Source of the DNA: Microbacterium terregens
GTDB lineage: Bacteria; Pseudomonadota; Alphaproteobacteria; Sphingomonadales; Sphingomonadaceae
Assembly: GCF_027922045.1 (NCBI RefSeq)
Contig: NZ_BSEX01000025.1
Coordinates: 1 to 6,983, forward strand
Length of the DNA: 6,983 bases
Direction of reading: 5' to 3'
The notes under the pieces are model-generated. The model searched no databases. It was given only the letters and a program-made list of their open reading frames with translations, and had not been told where the DNA came from. Positions 1 to 6,983 of the stretch are shown here, piece by piece (within the stretch, counting starts at the first letter, position 1; each line of letters starts with the position of its first letter). The translations under genes were made by a program, and so were the position numbers.

Positions 1-61
1 TGCTGCGGGTCGGCCAGGGTCAGGAAGTGCATGGATTGGCGACCGCCGCGTGCATCTTGTG

Positions 62-118
62 GATCGGCGTGCAAAAGGGACCCCGGTAGCGGGGTGATCG
101 GCGTCGAAAAAGGACCCC
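62..118 (+). repeat. Two 23-nt direct repeats resembling an IS21-family end
   Basis: Copies at 62-84 and 96-118 match at 20 of 23 positions and are offset by 34 nt. Each begins GATCGGCGT, has an A-rich centre and ends GGACCCC. Repeated sites of this form, with AAAAGGGACCCC, are typical of the multiple transposase-binding repeats at the ends of IS21-family elements in alphaproteobacteria; this is from memory of such ends. No istA or istB coding sequence lies to the right, so either the element body lies left of the window or only a relic end remains. Bases 1-61 and 119-182 contain nothing else I can identify. Confidence 0.5.
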
Positions 119-182
119 TCATCCTGGACGTCAGAGCCAGACCGGTTCATCGTCGACCCGATCCACCAGATGCCGGGACTAA

Positions 183-354
183 ACACCTAGAGCAGCACGG
201 CTGCGGATGCCCGTGGAACGCGCGGTGGCGTTGATCCATGCGGTCGGGGTCGGCGCGGTGACGACATTGCTCGCAATCCCCGAGGAGGAACGCGACCCTC
301 AGCTATCGTCCGTATTAGGGGTCCGGTGAGAGGATGGTCAAAATCGTACGGTCT
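183..354 (+). pseudogene. TetR-family regulator remnant, C-terminal part (left of the IS)
   Basis: Frame from 183 (just after an in-frame TAA at 180-182) to a TGA at 327-329 encodes about 48 residues, including RLRMPVERAVALIHAVGVG and then LLAIPEEERDP. This resembles the C-terminal ligand/dimerisation helices of TetR/AcrR repressors. GC-rich third positions support former coding. The frame breaks at 324-327: dropping one G from CCGGTGAG gives VRERMVKIVRS, a plausible continuation through 354, where the IS110 element begins. The N-terminal DNA-binding domain is absent, and an IS21-like end lies where it would have been. The gene is therefore non-functional. The family call is from pattern memory of TetR C-termini, and another helical regulator is possible. 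Confidence 0.5.
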
Positions 355-364
355 CATGACTGCC
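350..364 (+). repeat. IS110-element right end (RE): GGTCT core plus inverted decamer
   Basis: GGTCT at 350-354 is followed by CATGACTGCC at 355-364. The decamer recurs as a perfect inverted copy at 1843-1852, and GGTCT recurs in direct orientation at 1854-1858. Short inverted repeats near the ends plus a short direct core repeat are what the IS1111 subgroup of IS110 elements shows. Relative to the minus-strand transposase this is the downstream, right end. Confidence 0.65.
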
Positions 365-455
365 ATCCGAGACGCTGGCCGAGTTTACCTTGTCGCTGGC
401 CGCAAGACCAGCGTTCGCATTGACCTTGGCGGGTGTGCCGCGGACGCCTGATCGA

Positions 456-580
456 CGACGATTGATCATGCTCTCATCCGCGGGTTGGTTACCGCACTAC
501 CCGTATCCGTCGCTGGGCCTATCCTCCGTCTAAGTTCGGGCGTCGGACGAACCTGCCCCACCGTACACCGTGGATTGCCC
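456..580 (-). ncRNA. Candidate bridge RNA / seekRNA of the IS110-family element
   Basis: Read on the minus strand, this region folds into two successive stem/internal-loop/hairpin units. Unit 1: outer stem 572-580 with 515-524 (GGGC-A-ATCC against GGAT-AG-GCCC), inner stem 555-558 with 538-541. Unit 2: outer stem 508-512 with 456-460 (CGACG/CGTCG), inner stem 492-495 with 480-483 (GCGG/CCGC). Unit 1's internal loop contains GTACGGT (566-560), identical to plus-strand target bases 346-352, and CTTAGAC with its flank (539-528), complementary at 11 of 12 positions to plus-strand 1855-1866 across the other junction. That is the layout of the target-binding loop in IS110 bridge RNAs, which guide the transposase to target and donor DNA. 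Unit 2 would be the donor-binding loop. RNA ends are unknown; a hairpin at 592-604 (GTGCC/GGCAC) could belong to the 5' end and one at 394-413 (CGCTGG/CCAGCG) to the 3' side. Pairing was done by eye. Confidence 0.65.
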
Positions 581-581
581 A

Positions 582-1781
582 TCACAGTCGGGTGCCCGCG
601 GCACGCCGGCCAAGGCTATGCAGTTGGTGCCCTGGCGCCTCCTCCTGGAATTGTTCTGTGTGGATCAGCCGGCTATCGCTGGCGACACTCGACGGGCGAT
701 GTCCCCAGGCATAGCCGACCAATTCACGCGCGATCGCGGTGGTCACCTTGGGCTGGGGCTTTCCGGTGGCCGCCAGGCGACGGTAGCGCTGGCACAGGCG
801 AACCTGCGCCTTCCACCCGATCGCTTGGATGTCCTCGGGCAAGTCGATGACCCGTTCACGGTAGCGTCGCTCCTCGCGAGCGGGCAGCCGATACGACCAG
901 CCCGCCTCGATCAACATCGTCCGTGCTTGCGCGTTGCCCGCGCGGGTAATCCGGCCCCGCTTGGTCTTGGCACCGCTGGAGTGCTCGGACGGCACCAGGC
1001 CGACATACGCCATCAGTTGCTTGGGATTGTCGAAGCGGGTGAGGTCGCCCACCTCGGCGACCAGCGTTGCGGCACTGACCAGCCTGATACCGCGCAGGAC
1101 CTGCAGATTGCGGACCAGTGGCGCAAAACACCACGCATCCACCGCTTCAGCCAGCGCCGCCTCCAGGCGCGCGACCCGTGCCTGGGCCTCCAGCACCCGC
1201 TTCTGCATTTCCTCGAATGCCAGCTGCTGGTGGGGAAACTCAAACCGCTGCTCGGACAACCACCGCCAGTACATTTTCGTCCAAGCCGCCTTGCCGCCAA
1301 AACGACGATCATGCCGCAACAGGAAGCTGCGCACCGTCTGCTTGGCCCCGATGGCATCGTCCTGCGCGCTGCGTCGCGCGCGGATGAGATCGCGTACCGC
1401 CTCGTGCGCTTTGTCCGGCACCCAGATCGCGGTGAGTTCGCCGGCGCGTAGCAGCCGCGCCAGGGTCATCGCGTCACGCCGGTCCGTCTTAACATGGTCG
1501 CCCGGGCGTCGCGGCATCATCGAGGGGGCGATGACGATGCAATTCTGTCCCAGCTTCGACAGCAGCCGATGCAAGCCATACCCACAGGGTCCCGCTTCGT
1601 AGCAGACGTTCAACGTCACACCCGGTCCCGTCAGCCGCTTGACCAGCTTCCTGATCGCATCGTCCTCGTTGGCGACCGTGCCGACGAAACGTACCTCGCC
1701 TCCGCGTTCCCCATCGGCAACCGCGACCGCGATGGTTTCCTTATGAACGTCCAGACCAACGTATTTCACTGCCTCCGTCAT
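582..1781 (-). CDS. IS110-family transposase (DEDD/serine recombinase)
   Basis: About 399 residues from the ATG at 1781, chosen because GGAGA sits seven bases upstream and the family motif YVGLDVHK starts six residues in; an in-frame ATG at 1817 has no such site. The RuvC-like DEDD tetrad is visible: Asp11 (GLDVHK), Glu62 (YEAGPCG), Asp100 and Asp103 (KTDRRDA). A charged helical, coiled-coil-like stretch covers about 185-215. The C-terminal Transposase_20 domain (about 225-300) contains LRGIRLVSAATLVAEVGD and SEHSSGAKTKRG, with the probable catalytic serine at Ser268 or Ser269. In this family the protein uses an element-encoded guide RNA to recombine a circular donor with target DNA. The last 30 or so residues after VGYAW look unlike family C-termini: removing one G from the GGGG run (703-706) gives WDIARRVSPAIAG and a stop at 665-667, so this copy may carry a frameshift. 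Confidence 0.9.
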   Translation of the reverse strand: MTEAVKYVGLDVHKETIAVAVADGERGGEVRFVGTVANEDDAIRKLVKRLTGPGVTLNVCYEAGPCGYGLHRLLSKLGQNCIVIAPSMMPRRPGDHVKTDRRDAMTLARLLRAGELTAIWVPDKAHEAVRDLIRARRSAQDDAIGAKQTVRSFLLRHDRRFGGKAAWTKMYWRWLSEQRFEFPHQQLAFEEMQKRVLEAQARVARLEAALAEAVDAWCFAPLVRNLQVLRGIRLVSAATLVAEVGDLTRFDNPKQLMAYVGLVPSEHSSGAKTKRGRITRAGNAQARTMLIEAGWSYRLPAREERRYRERVIDLPEDIQAIGWKAQVRLCQRYRRLAATGKPQPKVTTAIARELVGYAWGHRPSSVASDSRLIHTEQFQEEAPGHQLHSLGRRAAGTRL

Positions 1782-1826
1782 GACTCGTCTCCGCTGCTGA
1801 CAATCCATCATCAGCATCTCAGATTC

Positions 1827-1841
1827 GAGCCTCCGAGGCTC
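1827..1841. repeat. Perfect hairpin in the IS left end
   Basis: GAGCCT (1827-1832) and AGGCTC (1836-1841) form a perfect six-base inverted repeat around CCG. It sits between the left-end decamer (1843-1852) and the transposase start, within the short left end. It could be part of the donor DNA recognised by the transposase or a hairpin limiting read-through into the gene. Its function cannot be told from sequence. Confidence 0.45.
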
Positions 1842-1842
1842 C

Positions 1843-1858
1843 GGCAGTCATGGGGTCT
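1843..1858 (+). repeat. IS110-element left end (LE): inverted decamer plus GGTCT core
   Basis: GGCAGTCATG (1843-1852) is the exact inverted copy of the decamer at 355-364; after one G (1853), GGTCT (1854-1858) repeats the bases next to the other end. This is the end upstream of the minus-strand transposase. Confidence 0.65.
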
Positions 1859-1909
1859 AAGCTCGGCGATCGTCCCGATTGGGATGGTATTTCGGGATTA
1901 TGGAAGTAG
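1859..1909 (+). pseudogene. Putative tail of the interrupted regulator (right of the IS)
   Basis: If the IS110 element and one GGTCT copy are removed, the frame ending with TCT at 352-354 continues directly into AAG at 1859 and reads KLGDRPDWDGISGLWK to a TAG at 1907-1909. That stop lies five bases from the end of sorB on the opposite strand, a normal spacing for convergent genes. The stretch is only 16 codons and could be open by chance, so the evidence is the combination of frame, stop position and element ends. Confidence 0.4.
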
Positions 1910-1914
1910 ATCGG

Positions 1915-2397
1915 TTAGCCGGTTCCACCTGAGACATCAGGAGCCACTTTGGGGTCCGGGTCCTGCGCCTTGCCGATCGCGGGTGCCACCTTCTGGCTCG
2001 GCATAGCGGTGAGATAAGCAACGATCGCATCGACGTCCTTCTCGGCCACTGGCGCCTTATACACCTCACGCATCTTGGTGACGGTCGCCTTCCACTGATC
2101 CGCCGATAGCGCAGGCTGGGTCAGCGCCATGCTGGCTGAGTGGCACGAGGTGCAATTGGCATTGATGACGTCGGCGTGCGGACCGTCGGGGTAGGTCGCG
2201 TCGTCGGCCGGCAGGTCGACGCTGGTCGAGGCAAGCGAGAAGCCGCGCGCTGACACGCTGGCGGCCGGTGCCGGCTCAGACATCTCGGAGATCGGAACGG
2301 GCGCCTTGCGGCTGCTCGGCGCGCCGATCGAGACGAGGATGATGCCGGTCAGGCCGATCAGGCCAGCAGCCATCACGCCGGGAGACGGAGTCTTCAT
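1915..2397 (-). CDS. sorB: Monohaem cytochrome c, sulfite dehydrogenase subunit B
   Basis: 160 residues. The N-terminus has a hydrophobic segment (about 7-26) that acts as a Sec signal or membrane anchor, followed by a Pro/Ala/Ser-rich linker, so the protein should be periplasmic. One haem-binding motif, CTSCH, is at 82-86; Met109 in TKMREVYKAP is the likely sixth ligand, as in SorB-type cytochromes. SorB accepts electrons from the molybdenum centre of SorA and passes them on to other cytochromes. The start is supported by AGGAG ten bases upstream, whose first base is the last base of the sorA stop codon; the genes are 14 nt apart, so they are surely co-transcribed. The C-terminus (QDPDPKVAPDVSGGTG) is polar and beyond the haem domain. 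No clear terminator follows. Confidence 0.88.
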   Translation of the reverse strand: MKTPSPGVMAAGLIGLTGIILVSIGAPSSRKAPVPISEMSEPAPAASVSARGFSLASTSVDLPADDATYPDGPHADVINANCTSCHSASMALTQPALSADQWKATVTKMREVYKAPVAEKDVDAIVAYLTAMPSQKVAPAIGKAQDPDPKVAPDVSGGTG

Positions 2398-2411
2398 GAT
2401 TTGCTCGCTCC

Positions 2412-3647
2412 TCAGGCCGCGATGATGGTGGTGGTTTCAATGTTGCCGCGCATGAACCCGCCGGGATTCCAGATCGGCTTCATCGGCTGAGCGACACCGT
2501 TGGTGTTCCAGCAGCGCACCATGATGGGGTTAGGCCCGCGTCTCAGCGGCACCCGCCCGTCCCAGCGCCGGAAGCTGTACCTGCCCTCGTCCGCTCCGAG
2601 CGTCGTCCTGTACCAGGTGCGGCCACCGTCCGACGACACATCGACCTTGGCGACGCCGCAATCGCCGCCCATTGCGATGCCGCCGACCGGGATCGACGCT
2701 TCATAGGCGATCGCCTGACCATCGGGCAGGCTGGTCATCCAGCTACGCGGGATCATGCGATTGATCGGTACGGTCGGGAAGTCCTTGGCACCGGGGGCGA
2801 CATTCGCGCCGGGTGTCGCGGGGATCTTGTAGGCCTTGGCCATCCAATACTGGTCGTCAGGGCCGGGCAGTACCTCGATCGCGTTCAGCATCTTGACCCA
2901 ATAGGTCGAGTACCAGCCCGGCACGATCAGCCGGCAGGGAAAGCCGTTGAGGAGCGGCAGTTGCTCGCCGTTCATGCCGAAGGCGATCATGACCTCGCCG
3001 TCGCGGGCATGGTCGATGTCGAGTGCCTTCTCGAAGTCAGGAGCGCCCGCCACGACCGGCTGATCGAGAGCGCCGAAGCGCACCTGCACCGCGCCTGCCT
3101 TGACCCCGGCGAGGTCGAGCACGTCGCGCAGGCGAACGCCGAGCCACTTGGCGTTGCCCATCGCGCCATTGCCCCATTGCGCGCCGGCGACGCGCGGCTG
3201 GAATAGCCCGCGACTGTTGCCCGAGCACTGATTGACCGCCGCCATTTCGACCCGTGGAAGGCGCAGCAGCTGAGCGAGGCTGATCGACAGCGGCCGGTTG
3301 ACGTGGCCGAAGACGTTGAGGCGGAAAGTCTCGACATCGATCGAGGTCGGGATATCGGCCCAGTGCCAGCGGACGAAGAACTGGTCGTTGGGCGTGAACA
3401 CCGACTTGTCGAACACGTCCATCGGCGTTTCCAGCAAAGGCGGATGGACACGCTGGAGGATCATGCTGCCCTTGCCGGGAAAGGCGCTGGTCATCGGCCG
3501 TTCGGCATTGCCGCCAGGCAGCTTCAGGTCGACGAGCTGCTGTGCCAGCGCAGGTGCTGCGGCAAGGCCGGCGCTGCCGAGCGCGGCATGCCTAAGAAAG
3601 CGGCGACGGCTGGTCTCACTCGCCAGCCCGGCGTCGAAATTGTCCAT
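2412..3647 (-). CDS. sorA: Periplasmic molybdenum sulfite dehydrogenase, subunit A (Tat-exported)
   Basis: 411 residues. It oxidises sulfite to sulfate and donates electrons to cytochrome c. The N-terminus has a Tat signal: SRRRFLRH (13-20), a hydrophobic stretch and a likely cleavage site after ALA (33-35). The oxidoreductase molybdopterin domain covers about 60-275: FFVRWHW gives Arg93 and His95, and NQCSGNSR gives Cys141, the expected molybdenum ligand. VPGWYSTYWVKM is the conserved substrate-pocket region containing candidate tyrosines. The Mo-co dimerisation domain covers about 295-405 and ends NPGGFMRGNIETTTI, as in SorA proteins. The start at 3647 is chosen for the AGGAG nine bases upstream and the Tat motif right after it; the frame stays open upstream to 4028 only because it overlaps the tdt gene. 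sorB follows, giving a SorAB pair. Full length, with all key residues. Confidence 0.92.
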   Translation of the reverse strand: MDNFDAGLASETSRRRFLRHAALGSAGLAAAPALAQQLVDLKLPGGNAERPMTSAFPGKGSMILQRVHPPLLETPMDVFDKSVFTPNDQFFVRWHWADIPTSIDVETFRLNVFGHVNRPLSISLAQLLRLPRVEMAAVNQCSGNSRGLFQPRVAGAQWGNGAMGNAKWLGVRLRDVLDLAGVKAGAVQVRFGALDQPVVAGAPDFEKALDIDHARDGEVMIAFGMNGEQLPLLNGFPCRLIVPGWYSTYWVKMLNAIEVLPGPDDQYWMAKAYKIPATPGANVAPGAKDFPTVPINRMIPRSWMTSLPDGQAIAYEASIPVGGIAMGGDCGVAKVDVSSDGGRTWYRTTLGADEGRYSFRRWDGRVPLRRGPNPIMVRCWNTNGVAQPMKPIWNPGGFMRGNIETTTIIAA

Positions 3648-3701
3648 GACAAGGCTCTCCTGTGGCCAGCCACGCTGGCGGATCGAAGGGGCGTTCTGCA
3701 A

Positions 3702-3738
3702 GTGATCGAACCGACTGATCCGATCACCACGGCGGATC
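3702..3738. repeat. Overlapping inverted repeats between tdt and sorA
   Basis: GTGATCG (3702-3708) pairs perfectly with CGATCAC (3721-3727). A second dyad, GATCCG (3717-3722) with CGGATC (3733-3738), shares two bases with the first and runs into the tdt stop codon (3737-3739). In the transcript the two hairpins would be mutually exclusive. The 89-nt gap could hold an mRNA-processing hairpin, an attenuator or an operator; no poly-U tract follows, so a simple intrinsic terminator is unlikely. Confidence 0.4.
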
Positions 3739-4888
3739 AGTTCGGGGTGGCGATGCAGGGCGAGACGAACAGGTTGCCCCGCCATGCGCCAGCCAGCGTC
3801 TTGGCACCGACCAGCAGCCACATCGCCGCAAGCGCGACTGTCAGCACCGTGCCAGCTATGCCGAAGAAGCCGAGGTTCAGCGTCGTGCCGAGGCGGAAGG
3901 TGGCGACGGTGTAGACGCCGAGCGGAAAGGTATAGCCCCACCAGCCCAGGTTGAACGGCACACCAGCGCGCCAGTAGCGGATGGTGATAAGCGTCGCGAG
4001 CGCCAGCCACCACAGGCCGAAACCCCACAGGCAGAGCCCGGCGACAACGCCGATCCCCTGCGCGACGGTGCCGACGCCGGCTAGCCCGTGCGCGGTGAGG
4101 ATCGCCGGCGCATCCGCGCCGAGCACCAGCATGCCCAGAGCACCCGTGCCGATCGGCCCCAGCGCCAGCCAGGAGGATGCCGCCATGCTTTCATGCGGCA
4201 ACTTGTGGAGTGCCATGCGCAGGATGAGGATGGCGAGGATGCCAAACGCGACCGGCACTGAATAGGCCCACAGCACATAGGAGGTCGCAAGCGTGACTAG
4301 CTGCGCGTGGGGATCGGCCAGATGCGGCGCGAGCAGCCCGCCGCTGGCACCCGCCACTTCGGCAGCGACGACCGGCAGCAGCCATACCGCGGTCATGCCG
4401 TCCAGGCTATGCTCGTGGCGGGTGAACATCAGGTACGGGATCAGCACGCCGCAGGCGAGCGACATGGCGACGTCGATCCACCACAAGACCTGCGCGACCG
4501 GTACGATGCCATTCCCGAACCGCGCGATGCCGAAGGCGAGGCAGCCGTTGATGATTGTCGCCAGCCCCATCGGGATGGTCCCGATGAACATTGACACGGT
4601 GTTGTGCCCGAAGATGCGCCGCGCCTCATGCCCGAACATCACCCAGCGCGCGCCATAGAGGCCGGCGAACAGCGCGAAGAGTGCGATGTTGAAGAACCAC
4701 AACACCTCGCCGAATGGCTTCAGCGAGGGTCCAATGCCGGGTACCTGCGGCAGTGCGAGCGCGAGGATGCCCGTGCCCATCGTCGCGGCGAACCAGTTGG
4801 GCGTGAACTGGCGGATCATCTCGCGGGGGTGATCGAGCCGGCTGAGCGGCTTGAGGCCGCTCAGAACGGAGTGCGTGTCGGCAGTCAT
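3737..4888 (-). CDS. TDT-family transporter (TehA/SLAC1/Ssu1-like), probable sulfite exporter
   Basis: 383 residues with ten hydrophobic segments, matching the ten-helix TDT fold; the first includes NWFAATMGTGI, the third FIGTIPMGLATIING, the ninth WWGYTFPLGVYTVAT. The TFPLG region lies where SLAC1/TehA channels carry their pore helix and gating phenylalanine; the exact residue was not aligned. TDT members move anions: malate (Mae1), sulfite (Ssu1), chloride/nitrate (SLAC1), and TehA is linked to tellurite. The location between a LysR gene and sorAB points to sulfite; this is inference from context. The start codon overlaps the lysR stop as ATGA, and AAGGAG inside the lysR end lies eight bases upstream, so translation is probably coupled. 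sorA starts 89 nt downstream of its stop. C4-dicarboxylate transport is the main alternative. Confidence 0.85.
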   Translation of the reverse strand: MTADTHSVLSGLKPLSRLDHPREMIRQFTPNWFAATMGTGILALALPQVPGIGPSLKPFGEVLWFFNIALFALFAGLYGARWVMFGHEARRIFGHNTVSMFIGTIPMGLATIINGCLAFGIARFGNGIVPVAQVLWWIDVAMSLACGVLIPYLMFTRHEHSLDGMTAVWLLPVVAAEVAGASGGLLAPHLADPHAQLVTLATSYVLWAYSVPVAFGILAILILRMALHKLPHESMAASSWLALGPIGTGALGMLVLGADAPAILTAHGLAGVGTVAQGIGVVAGLCLWGFGLWWLALATLITIRYWRAGVPFNLGWWGYTFPLGVYTVATFRLGTTLNLGFFGIAGTVLTVALAAMWLLVGAKTLAGAWRGNLFVSPCIATPN

Positions 4889-5757
4889 GCGACCTGCTCC
4901 TTGATGAGGTCCGTCAGCGCGTCGGCCGCGCGGGTGCGATAGCGTTCCTTGTGGCGCAGCGCGTGAAAGGCGCGGTCGGGCAGCCCGAGCGGCAGCTCGA
5001 CAAGGTCACCGGCCTTGAGCGCACGAGCTACGACCAATCGCGACAAGACGGCAACGCCGGCACCGGCCTCGACCGCGGTACGCACCGCCTCGTTGGACGG
5101 CAGCGTCATCGCTATCGTCAGCTGGGCCGGATCAAACCCGCGCGTTCGCAGCACGTCCTCGAAGGTCGAGCGCGTACCGGATCCCAGCTCACGGACGATC
5201 CAGCGTTCAGTGCGCAGCCAGGCCTCGTCGACACGTTCGGCGTCCTCGCGGCCGACCAGCACCATCGGATCACGCCCGACAGTCCAGTGGGCGAGTGCCG
5301 GTTCGTCCACCTCGCCCTCGACAAAGCCGAGTTCCGCCGCGCCGCTCAGGACCTGCGCTGCCGCACCTTCGGTGTTGTCGATCGCGAGCTCAACCGCGAT
5401 CTGCGGGTGGCGTTCGTGGAAGGCGGCGAGCTTTGCCGGCAACCAGTAGCTCGCGATCGTCTGGCTGGCGACGATCCGCAATGAACCACGGGCAAGCCCG
5501 GCATAGTCCGCCAGCATCGTCTCGGCATGCGCTGCCCGCCCCAGCACCGCGCGCGCTTCCTCCAGAAAGCCGCGGCCTGCTTCGGTCAGCTGGATGCCAC
5601 GCCCGACGCGGTGAAACAGAGGAACCCCGTAGCGCGCTTCGAGGGCAGCAATCGCGCCGGAGGCAGCAGACTGCGTGACGTTCAGCACCTCCGCTGCCTT
5701 GGTGACGTGTTCGCGCTCCGCGACACCGACGAATATTCTGAGCTGCTCCAGGGTCAT
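4885..5757 (-). CDS. LysR-family transcriptional regulator of the sulfite locus
   Basis: 290 residues from the ATG at 5757. The winged helix-turn-helix is at about 1-60: MTLEQLRIFV, then HVTKAAEVLNVTQSAASGAI as the DNA-reading part, then LEARYGVPLFHRVGRGIQLTEAG. The effector-binding domain spans about 87-290 (LRIVASQTIASYWLP, ELGFVEGEVDEP, ELGSGTRSTFE). It resembles the CysL/CbbR-like branch, members of which control sulfur or carbon assimilation; the effector here is unknown. The start at 5757 is preferred over the in-frame ATG at 5793 because MTLEQL is the usual LysR N-terminus; neither has a strong ribosome site. Unusually, it heads the operon it probably controls (lysR-tdt-sorA-sorB) while also being divergent from the second sulfite oxidase gene. 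Confidence 0.9.
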   Translation of the reverse strand: MTLEQLRIFVGVAEREHVTKAAEVLNVTQSAASGAIAALEARYGVPLFHRVGRGIQLTEAGRGFLEEARAVLGRAAHAETMLADYAGLARGSLRIVASQTIASYWLPAKLAAFHERHPQIAVELAIDNTEGAAAQVLSGAAELGFVEGEVDEPALAHWTVGRDPMVLVGREDAERVDEAWLRTERWIVRELGSGTRSTFEDVLRTRGFDPAQLTIAMTLPSNEAVRTAVEAGAGVAVLSRLVVARALKAGDLVELPLGLPDRAFHALRHKERYRTRAADALTDLIKEQVA

Positions 5758-5903
5758 GCAGCTTATATCGCGCAATCTGATCGATACGACCAACCGTTTG
5801 ATCTGCTCATTCCAATCTGGATATCGGAACGATCGGCAGCCTTTCGTCTGTGATGGTCTTGAAGACTTGAAGCGATCCGCGCGCTTGCGGCGTTTGTTCG
5901 TCC
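5758..5903. promoter_or_regulatory. Divergent promoter region with candidate LysR operator
   Basis: The 146 nt between the divergent lysR and sulfite oxidase genes must hold both promoters. TTCC-N12-GGAA at 5810-5829 is an imperfect dyad (7 of 10 positions pair) of a size suitable for a LysR recognition site. A second palindrome, GTCTT-G-AAGAC at 5856-5866, overlaps a tandem CTTGAAG repeat (5858-5864 and 5866-5872). No convincing -35/-10 pair is visible, and neither gene has a strong Shine-Dalgarno sequence here. Which dyad is bound, if any, is inference. Confidence 0.4.
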
Positions 5904-6971
5904 ATGACCGATATGATCGAGCGCAAATCCGATCCCTACAACGCCGAGCCGACGCCCAGTGCGTTGATCGAGCGGTTCCTGACGCCGCAGGCGCTGTTCT
6001 ACGTGCGCAGCCACGGGCCAGTGCCGGATCTGCCCGCCAATCATCGGATCGAGGTGAGCGGGACGGGCATGGCGAGCCGCTCTTTCTCGGTAGAGGAACT
6101 GAAAGCTACGTTTTCCACGCACTCGGTGACAGCCGTGCTCCAATGCGCGGGTAACCGGCGCACGGACCTCCAGCAGGTCGGCAAGACGTCGGGCGATCCT
6201 TGGGATGTCGGCGCGATTGGCAATGCGGAGTGGACCGGCGTACGCCTGGCCGATGTGCTCGATGCAGTTGGCGCGCCTGATGCGTCCAACCTGTTCGTGG
6301 CGTTCACCGGCGCCGACGAGGTGGACGTGGAGGGCGAAGAAGCCTTGTTCGGGGTCTCGATCGCCATGGACAAGGCGCGGCAACCCGACGTCCTCATTGC
6401 CTGGGCGATGAACGGCGAGCCGCTGACGCCCGAACATGGCGCCCCGCTCCGCATGGTGGTGCCGGGCTATGCAGGCGTGCGCAGCGCCAAATGGCTGACA
6501 CGGATCGAGGTGCGAGACACGCCTTCCGACGCACCGATCCAGGCGCACGACTACAAGCTGTTTCCCGCCGATGTGACGAGCGACACCGTCGACTGGAGCC
6601 AGGGTCTGACGATCAACGCCATGCCGCTCAACGCCGCGATCTGCGTGCCCGGCTCTGGCGAAAGCCTGCCGGCCGGGGAGGTGCGGATCGAGGGCTATGC
6701 CATCGCCTATGATCGCCGCGTCTCTCGGGTCGAAGTGTCGGTAAACGGTGGTCGCGAGTGGCAACAGGCGACGTTCGCCGATGATCCGGAGACGCACTGG
6801 GGTTGGCGGCGCTGGACCCTCGACGCCACGCTTGCCAAAGGTCGCCAGCACCTTGTCGTGCGCGCCTTCGACGGGGCTGGACAGGGACAGCCCGAACGGC
6901 CGGACACGATGTGGAACTTCGCCGGATATCTGTGCACCGCCTGGCATCACGTCCACGTGCTGGTCGAATGA
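5904..6971 (+). CDS. Cytoplasmic-type sulfite oxidase family molybdoenzyme
   Basis: 355 residues, haem-free and full length for a plant-like sulfite oxidase (Mo domain plus dimerisation domain only). No Tat or Sec signal is present: the N-terminus is MTDMIERKSDPYNAEP, so it should stay in the cytoplasm. Key positions: FYVRSHGPVP with Arg35 and His37; LQCAGNRR with Cys81 as the expected molybdenum ligand; GAIGNAEWTGVRLADVL; AWAMNGEPLTPEHGAPLRMVVPGYAGVRSAKWL; and the terminal WNFAGYLCTAWHHVHV typical of eukaryotic-type enzymes. It clearly differs from the SorA in the same window. Its electron acceptor is unknown; plant enzymes use oxygen, and a separate cytochrome is possible. The ATG at 5904 lacks a good ribosome site; ATG 5913 is an alternative. 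It is transcribed away from lysR, and a possible following gene overlaps its stop. Confidence 0.88.
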   Translation: MTDMIERKSDPYNAEPTPSALIERFLTPQALFYVRSHGPVPDLPANHRIEVSGTGMASRSFSVEELKATFSTHSVTAVLQCAGNRRTDLQQVGKTSGDPWDVGAIGNAEWTGVRLADVLDAVGAPDASNLFVAFTGADEVDVEGEEALFGVSIAMDKARQPDVLIAWAMNGEPLTPEHGAPLRMVVPGYAGVRSAKWLTRIEVRDTPSDAPIQAHDYKLFPADVTSDTVDWSQGLTINAMPLNAAICVPGSGESLPAGEVRIEGYAIAYDRRVSRVEVSVNGGREWQQATFADDPETHWGWRRWTLDATLAKGRQHLVVRAFDGAGQGQPERPDTMWNFAGYLCTAWHHVHVLVE

Positions 6972-6983
6972 TCGAAGCGTCAG
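6968..6983 (+). CDS. Possible start of a following gene, cut by the window edge
   Basis: An ATG at 6968 overlaps the TGA of the sulfite oxidase gene (ATGA) and reads MIEAS before the window ends. Such overlaps are common for coupled genes and one also occurs at lysR/tdt. Five codons are too few to identify anything; it may be chance. Confidence 0.25.

Follow-up and report, generated by a model that had tools for sequence, protein, structure and literature searches.

The question raised by this locus is whether the non-coding region behind a transposase gene encodes an RNA that selects the site of insertion and, if so, which site that RNA selects. A preliminary description of the window (the whole stretch of 6,983 nucleotides that was analysed) had proposed, from the letters alone, a guide RNA on the minus strand whose target loop matches the flanks of its own insertion sequence (IS). 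We conclude, with a probability of roughly 0.93, that a structured RNA encoded on the 3' side of the DEDD transposase gene of this IS1111-type element directs the transposase to the terminal inverted repeat (TIR) of Tn3-family transposons. Guide RNAs of this kind were first described in 2024, and the element in the window is a new, well-supported example. The coordinates of its features are collected in Table 1.

Table 1. Features of the element, its predicted RNA and its target in the window
Feature	Position	Strand	Basis or remark
IS1111-type insertion sequence (IS110 family), 1506 bp	353..1858	minus	7-bp left / 3-bp right convention (PMC11187229); ends common to relatives, flanks differ
DEDD (IS110-family) transposase gene	582..1781	minus	PF01548 + PF02371; NF033542; comparison with four relatives
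Subterminal inverted repeat (sTIR) ATGACTGCC, right end of IS in transposase orientation	356..364		one further base pair gives 10 bp here
sTIR, left end of IS in transposase orientation	1843..1851
Predicted guide RNA (bridge RNA / seekRNA), 156 nt, 3' of transposase gene	428..583	minus	kept across relatives; stems covary
Target-binding stem-loop	515..580	minus	outer stem 577-580/515-518, then 572-575/521-524; inner stem 555-558/538-541; covariation
5' target guide GTACG	562..566	minus	own flank against shuffled guides; 560-561 face the core (560-566 in the preliminary description)
3' target guide CTTAG	530..534	minus	per-position matches to left flank
Second hairpin (CCGCGG stem), holding the donor guide	438..483	minus	fold; conserved
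Donor guide ATGAGAG in second hairpin	471..477	minus	equals right end of IS plus core in most relatives
Outer 35 bp of interrupted 38-bp Tn3-family TIR	318..352	plus	counted on the sequence; same layout in relatives
Inner 3 bp (AAG) of interrupted TIR	1859..1861	plus	counted on the sequence; relatives
Core dinucleotide, one junction, GT here (CT in most relatives)	351..352	plus
Core dinucleotide, other junction, CT	1857..1858	plus

The insertion sequence and its transposase

The transposase scores above the cut-offs of both DEDD_Tnp_IS110 (PF01548) and Transposase_20 (PF02371), the domain pair of the IS110 family, and reaches 249.7 bits with NF033542 against a cut-off of 140. Its translation contains GLVPSEHSSG, which fits the IS1111-group motif GL-P----S(T)G. 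The transposase of the relatives is 371 amino acids long and thus lies outside the 330-350 amino acids given for the IS1111 group, a range that is descriptive rather than a strict definition (PMC11187229). In the window, translation may start as far upstream as 1817 (ORF 582-1817, minus strand). The C-terminal frame (582-670) is shifted relative to the 371-residue relatives, with the last residues swapped for an unrelated, longer tail; locus L003, which is almost identical to the window over the IS, retains the usual ending. Therefore, judging from its reading frame, the window copy may no longer be capable of moving by itself.

The sTIR (CATGACTGCC) comprises 10 bp in the window and 9 bp in some copies; a length of 11-13 is usual for the IS1111 group (PMC11187229), and a broader range of 7-17, which covers the 10 bp seen here, has also been given (PMC11208160). 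Beyond the 9-bp sTIR the element extends by AGACCCC (7 bp) at one end and GAG (3 bp) at the other, with no duplication of target bases, as is characteristic of IS1111 elements. The non-coding region 3' of the transposase gene (353-581, 229 bp) is larger than that upstream (1782-1858, 77 bp), the usual IS1111 placement. The predicted RNA lies downstream of the gene, which differs from the upstream position of the IS110 group in the narrow sense.

Relatives were drawn from 28 loci of a one-genome-per-species collection, some of which share a genome, and from a plasmid search that gave 26 records, several of them matching the RNA region or an IS end only; both sources were combined with loci retrieved later. 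Pooled in this way and written in transposase orientation, with the core in brackets, the relatives have the layout ...CTT[AG]ACCCCATGACTGCC - tnp - RNA - GGCAGTCATGAG[AG]CGTACG.... Two relatives, L012 and L016, are small contigs that consist of head-to-tail IS dimers with abutted ends, and both have the junction CATGAGAGACCC. Abutted ends would be expected of a circular intermediate, as in the IS1111 group, but the dimers may also be tandem insertions or assembly products.

Structure and distribution of the predicted RNA

The stem between 572-580 and 515-524 that had been proposed is present as 4 + 4 pairs flanking a small internal loop, and the pairing of the inner hairpin, 538-541 with 555-558, is likewise present in the sequence. 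Since the energy of single-sequence folds is ordinary (z = -1.0 and -1.1), the RNA structure rests on covariation, the check that the preliminary description itself had suggested. In an alignment of 24 near and distant sequences, in which the proposed stems plus extensions were examined, changes on both sides were observed in 9 of the 16 tested stem pairs, a number reached by 1 of 500 shuffles, and the stem covariation score was 0.265 against 0.108 for shuffled alignments (reached by none of 500). Controls in which the structure was slid along the alignment gave at most 0.143, although the tested structure, having been drawn from the window sequence, is favoured in this comparison. The proposed stems thus covary across relatives. 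With near copies alone, RNAalifold predicted a structure in which 1 of 35 pairs had changes on both sides, and the model built on that structure (R1) was used solely for finding copies.

With strict filters, the R1 search found copies in 10 of 397 genomes of the family and in 8 of 385 genomes of the class, and a pattern search for the RNA found it in 5 of 396 genomes of the order. No Rfam family matched the guide RNA at E values up to 1, and viral contigs gave no exact match to the conserved RNA motif. A search of the window's own genome reported no further copy of the RNA region, a weak search in that the window's own copy was likewise unreported. In two loci the RNA, or its end, occurs together with the right end and with no adjoining transposase (L044, 3001-3257; L020, 4715-4974 and 6032-6164). 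The idea that such solo RNAs are separate elements was rejected, as the sequences upstream of the two breakpoints have no similarity, and by their sequence the pieces look like remnants.

Agreement of the target guides with the flanks

Minus-strand bases 566-560 do read GTACGGT, identical to plus-strand 346-352, and 528-539 do match 1855-1866 at 11 of 12 positions, as had been noticed at the outset; of the 12-base match, only about five bases would act as a guide. The stretch 1855-1866 had been taken for the core plus the right flank. Its first two bases (1855-1856, GT) are inside the IS end, and 1862-1866 lie outside the 38-bp target repeat. Among 34 rows that include a left flank, the C, T and T of CTTAG match in 28, 28 and 27, and the four positions before it, which face 1862-1866, match in 10, 10, 12 and 2; the A and G match in all 34, but they belong to the core or the IS side and carry no weight. 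These 34 rows include the window, duplicates and two dimer rows, and L014 was dropped as its search motif failed. Agreement between the target core and the two core-facing bases of the 5' guide is seen in few copies. Guides of about 5 + 5 bases thus replace the 7 + 12 first suggested.

In the transposase orientation GTACG precedes CTTAG, so that the match to the top strand lies 5' of the match to the bottom strand, which is the IS1111 order. When the non-coding region was shuffled 10,000 times with its dinucleotides preserved, both matches in order within 45 nt never occurred; GTACGGT alone appeared in 224 of these shuffles, the 11/12 match in 1 and the reduced pair GTACG...CTTAG in 11.

A comparison of each copy's loop with its own flanks, also suggested in the preliminary description, was carried out on near copies, defined as RNA matches of at least 100 bits. 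The 57 rows with both guide and right flank gave 45 distinct pairs (L067 was skipped), of which six were dropped: two each from L012 and L016 (dimer junction or truncated flank), L013 (truncated) and L075, in which the 5' half of the RNA is replaced. At six positions per row, the remaining 39 pairs, the window included, gave 178 matches to their own flanks against 154.3 for shuffled guides, a value reached by none of 20,000 shuffles that ignore relatedness. Shuffled in the same way and with the same disregard of relatedness, the 20 distinct guide-flank combinations gave 80 against 66.0 (0 of 20,000), and one row for each of the seven guides gave 36 against 25.3 (18 of 50,000). With G-U wobble allowed, the three values became 201 against 184.4 (0 of 20,000), 88 against 78.6 (10 of 20,000) and 37 against 29.2 (19 of 50,000). 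Several re-aimed guides follow their own targets, namely ACACC (L017, L044), CCTACG (L014), TATACG (L036, not L082) and CAACG in one of two copies of L021, the other of which has AACG. Seven of the 39 pairs fit poorly, at 0-3 of six positions (L004, L009, L018, L020, L043, L074, L082); the guides of L009 and L018 fit better after a shift of one base, and L020, a fragment, carries in its 4715 copy a guide that does not fit its own flank.

Stem covariation and the agreement of guides with flanks both support the proposal that this is the guide RNA of the IS, with guides on opposite sides of an internal loop. The match had further been read as a record of the event that placed the IS here. L003 has the same guides and an IS 99.6% identical to the window's in another repeat subtype, and therefore the match reflects a specificity for Tn3 ends rather than a private record of one insertion. 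The guide reading itself stood, and two parts of the system had been missed, the identity of the target and a second (donor) guide.

Identity of the target

Counted on the sequence, 318-352 and 1859-1861 join to 35 + 3 = 38 bp (GGGG...CGTACG-GT-AAG). Comparison of the flanks places the target, in the window and in most relatives, at the inner end of a 38-bp Tn3-family TIR. In 9 of 10 chosen relatives the flanks rejoin to 38-bp repeats that end in CTAAG and differ in the middle; those of L014 rejoin to 37 bp, counted from the first GGG. Of 42 distinct right flanks, each 45 nt or longer and two of them dimer junctions, 26 have CCCC within offsets 30-36 and 25 have it at offset 33, where it closes a 38-bp repeat; offsets outside 32-34 have it in at most 2 of the 42. 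A tblastn search, for which two TnpA proteins annotated in two of these loci served as queries, found Tn3 transposase sequence in 24 of 55 near-copy loci; this is a raw count over loci that reach about 1.5-3 kb to each side and include some duplicates, and the window is counted among them without a match.

A 38-bp repeat of the ACACC type occurs uninterrupted in the window's own genome (L059, 3501-3538). No Tn3 transposase was found in this genome, in a search whose control was detected in 2 of 14 genomes. Nor was there a clear second repeat of the window's subtype in it, as GGTGAGAGGATGGTC was found at 10 places, all with two mismatches, and the reversed control at 7. The stretch that resembles plasmid p213 of Sphingomonas sp. 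AAP5 stops at window position 317, directly outside the TIR.

A dinucleotide core and a donor guide

The preliminary description had fixed GGTCT as the core. The right junction of the relatives reads AGAG, AGAA or AGAT against AGAC in the window; it varies after a shared AGA, and therefore GGTCT is not the core but consists, in the window, of IS and target bases, and the shared core is a dinucleotide, usually CT. The left junction is AG in 34 rows, with the G belonging to the motif used for finding the end. The right junction is AG in most copies, AA in L018, L029, L066, L075 and L082, AT in L044 and AC in the window; L067 has an altered IS end. These junctions fit a dinucleotide core that would be derived from the donor on one side and from the target on the other.

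The putative donor guide, ATGAGAG, equals the right end including the core of most relatives, and the window's own right end, ATGAGAC, differs in the last base. Across 22 distinct pairs the donor guide matched its own right end at 133 positions against 114.5 for shuffled pairings (reached by 0 of 50,000); one of these rows, the truncated copy L012, is an artefact in which the RNA was matched to itself. With one row for each of six guide types, the result was 38 against 29.0 (143 of 50,000). The types include ATGAGAG, ATCAGAG, ATAAGAG, ATATCAG and ATACCAG, and the poorest fits are those of L087 and L079 (4 of 7). A donor guide for the left end was not found, there being no antisense match of at least six bases to the junction within the RNA.

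Proposed mechanism and alternative explanations

From these features a mechanism can be proposed. The target loop would pair with both strands at the inner end of the 38-bp TIR, with the 5' guide GTACG on one strand and the 3' guide CTTAG on the other, on opposite sides of the core dinucleotide, and the second hairpin would pair with the element's own right end (ATGAGAG). By analogy with characterised relatives, the RNA would be transcribed and bound by the transposase, which would exchange strands at the core, so that a circular form of the element could insert without duplicating target bases. The predicted insertion point is CGTACGCT^AAG, and the predicted circle junction is CATGAGAGACCCCATG. 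The likely benefit would be a safe place to ride, since a TIR is a common and mobile site and is not a gene of the host.

Could the match of loop and flanks instead be due to chance, or to sequence shared between the IS interior and its ends, with no guide RNA at all? The matches are short, part of the 12-base match is indeed IS end or chance, and the fold energy is ordinary; against this, both matches in order were absent from all 10,000 shuffles, the guides follow their own flanks over the relatives, the donor guide likewise follows its partner, and the stems covary, which leaves this explanation extremely improbable. It is also conceivable that protein contacts of the transposase recognize the Tn3 TIR and that the likeness of the RNA to the target has a different cause, for instance descent of the RNA from a Tn3 end. 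As most near copies have similar transposases and one type of target, protein and guide are in part confounded. However, guide and target change together while the stems stay constant (L014, L017, L036), two guides match opposite strands across the insertion point, which copying of a Tn3 end would not yield, and experiments with ISEc11 and ISEc21 demonstrated a choice directed by RNA (PMC11187229). Little probability, therefore, attaches to recognition by protein contacts.

A further possibility is that the shared flanks reflect carriage along with a few ancestral insertions into Tn3 elements rather than repeated targeted insertion. Some loci do share their surroundings, as L005/L010 and L003/L036 have left flank and repeat in common, and L015/L037 share all of both flanks shown. 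Nevertheless, the rejoined repeats differ widely in mid-sequence and the DNA inside them differs as well. Moreover, L003 and L036 share a transposon end, yet their ISs are 99.6% and 91.1% identical to that of the window, and L015 and L037 share a transposon end and outer flank, yet theirs are 80.1% and 88.2% identical. These differing identities at shared ends suggest separate arrivals, or, for L015 and L037, separate arrivals or an exchange at one site. In addition, a single IS in genome G321 occupies four places; the left flank is different at each of them, although GTA precedes the core in every one. We consider carriage unlikely as the general explanation, and guidance by the RNA remains the reading that we adopt.

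Comparison with known systems

The seekRNAs described for the IS1111-family elements ISEc11, ISKpn4 and ISPa11 resemble the RNA of the window in lying 3' of the transposase gene of an element with sTIRs, and in having two short matches to opposite target strands, the top-strand match 5' of the bottom-strand match (PMC11187229). The natural re-direction between ISEc11 and ISXne4 is likewise similar to the re-aimed guides observed here (PMC11187229). In contrast, those elements have other targets, their transposases have 330-350 amino acids as against 371 in the relatives here, and the available part of the account describes no donor guide in their seekRNAs (PMC11187229), whereas the window RNA has one. 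In this respect, and in its core CT, the window resembles the IS621 bridge RNA of the IS110 group, which carries target and donor guides on one RNA (PMC11208160). The RNA of that group lies mostly in the left end, upstream of the gene, with the order of guides reversed (PMC11208160); that of the window is downstream of the gene and has the IS1111 order. Potential donor-binding bases in the multi-loop have been noted for many predicted IS1111 RNAs (PMC11208160).

The targeting of Tn3 ends, known from the enterobacterial IS4321 and IS5075, is here extended to sphingomonads and rhizobia. Partridge and Hall reportedly described, in 2003, insertion of the IS4321/IS5075 type into a Tn3-family TIR. 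IS4321 and IS5075, of the IS1111 family, insert into the TIRs of Tn21-type transposons (PMC8269217) and, by this description, are like the window in being IS1111-type elements with a Tn3-family TIR as target. Neither name occurred among the best 60 of 2763 plasmid matches. In the literature that was searched, we found no report joining IS1111/IS110 elements, Sphingo-/Sphingobium and the Tn3 family, nor one on such elements together with IS66.

The near relatives form a natural series in which guide and target have changed together on a constant RNA scaffold. Such a series is useful for identifying the guide bases that matter, the degree of mismatch that can be tolerated and the ways in which transposases guided by RNA re-aim in nature. 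The insertions would also split a TIR that is required for transposition of the host transposon.

Distant relatives and a second IS110 lineage

The distant set comprised 18 right-end entries outside the near copies, for which the longest contiguous guide-flank match in an automatic window was recorded as a raw length. L086 (AATGCTCT) and L068 (CGAACTCT) each have eight contiguous bases including the core, each with its own target. Six were found in L071 and L084 and five in L069, L076, L070, L083, L072 and L023, and 8 of the 18 entries had fewer than five (L024, L025, L026, L067, L085, L087, L088, L089). For L024, L025 and L026 the relevant place fell outside the automatic window, and AACGTT and GCTCCT were seen in the RNA by eye; the matches of L098 (CTGTT) and L099 (CGCT) were also read by eye. 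The right end of L100 was not found.

The four places of the IS in G321 are L069, L076, L080 and L081. The GTA that precedes the core in each of their left flanks is that of the 3' guide, and their right flanks are of two kinds, both beginning with CGCTGT. The flanks of these four loci and of L099 read GTA-AG-CGCTGT, most of them beside IS66-family genes, and the guide RNA matches them in part. A tblastn search with the IS66 proteins annotated in L099 found IS66-like sequence of three proteins each in L069, L081 and L004, pieces of 23 residues in L091 (a duplicate of L004) and 26 residues in L080, a match to one protein in the otherwise unrelated L001, and no IS66-like sequence in L076. As judged by eye, abutment of the two ends in the G321 copies would produce a promoter-like pair, TTGACA-17-TATGTC.

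L096, on a Citrobacter plasmid, and L097, on a plasmid of an uncultured bacterium, are IS110 elements at 25-27% identity, and they are 90% identical to each other over 1423 bp. To the right of each (2695-2732 in L096, 2697-2734 in L097) there is an abutting Tn3-like 38-bp end, CTTA...CCCC. The part of this end beyond the IS, read inwards, ends in TTGTAC, and the stretches TTATTGTAC (9 nt) and TTGTAC (6 nt) are common to the 38-bp end and the 3' non-coding regions of the elements. No sTIR pair was seen in L097. On these short identities, a very divergent transposase lineage seems to share this kind of target, and it is possibly related to IS4321/IS5075.

Taken jointly, and with moderate confidence, we lean towards a broader picture in which one IS1111-type clade is specialized for the termini of other transposable elements and shifts its aim naturally. 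Its near relatives would follow the subtypes of the Tn3 repeat (GTACG, ACACC, CCTACG, TATACG, CAACG), and its distant members (the L069 group, L099) would carry GTA-AG-CGC guides beside IS66-family genes. Target and donor guides would change as separate modules on one scaffold, and rG-dT wobble would let one guide cover several subtypes. The second, very divergent IS110 lineage (L096, L097) would have acquired an aim at repeats of the Tn3 type as well.

Neighbourhood in the window

The remainder of the window, 1871-6983, holds a sulfite dehydrogenase cluster with SorB- and SorA-like proteins, a TDT/SLAC1 transporter, a LysR regulator and a second molybdopterin oxidoreductase. Two plasmids of other Sphingomonas carry this cluster with differing upstream junctions, in one case beside a gene of the recombinase family (resolvase-like). 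The differing junctions and the resolvase-like neighbour thus make it possible that the cluster is cargo carried by a Tn3-family transposon, one repeat end of which is seen in the window. On the other side of the IS, a short segment at 56-127 recurs on many plasmids (some part of window 1-354 is matched by 335 records), and it is probably the end of another mobile element.
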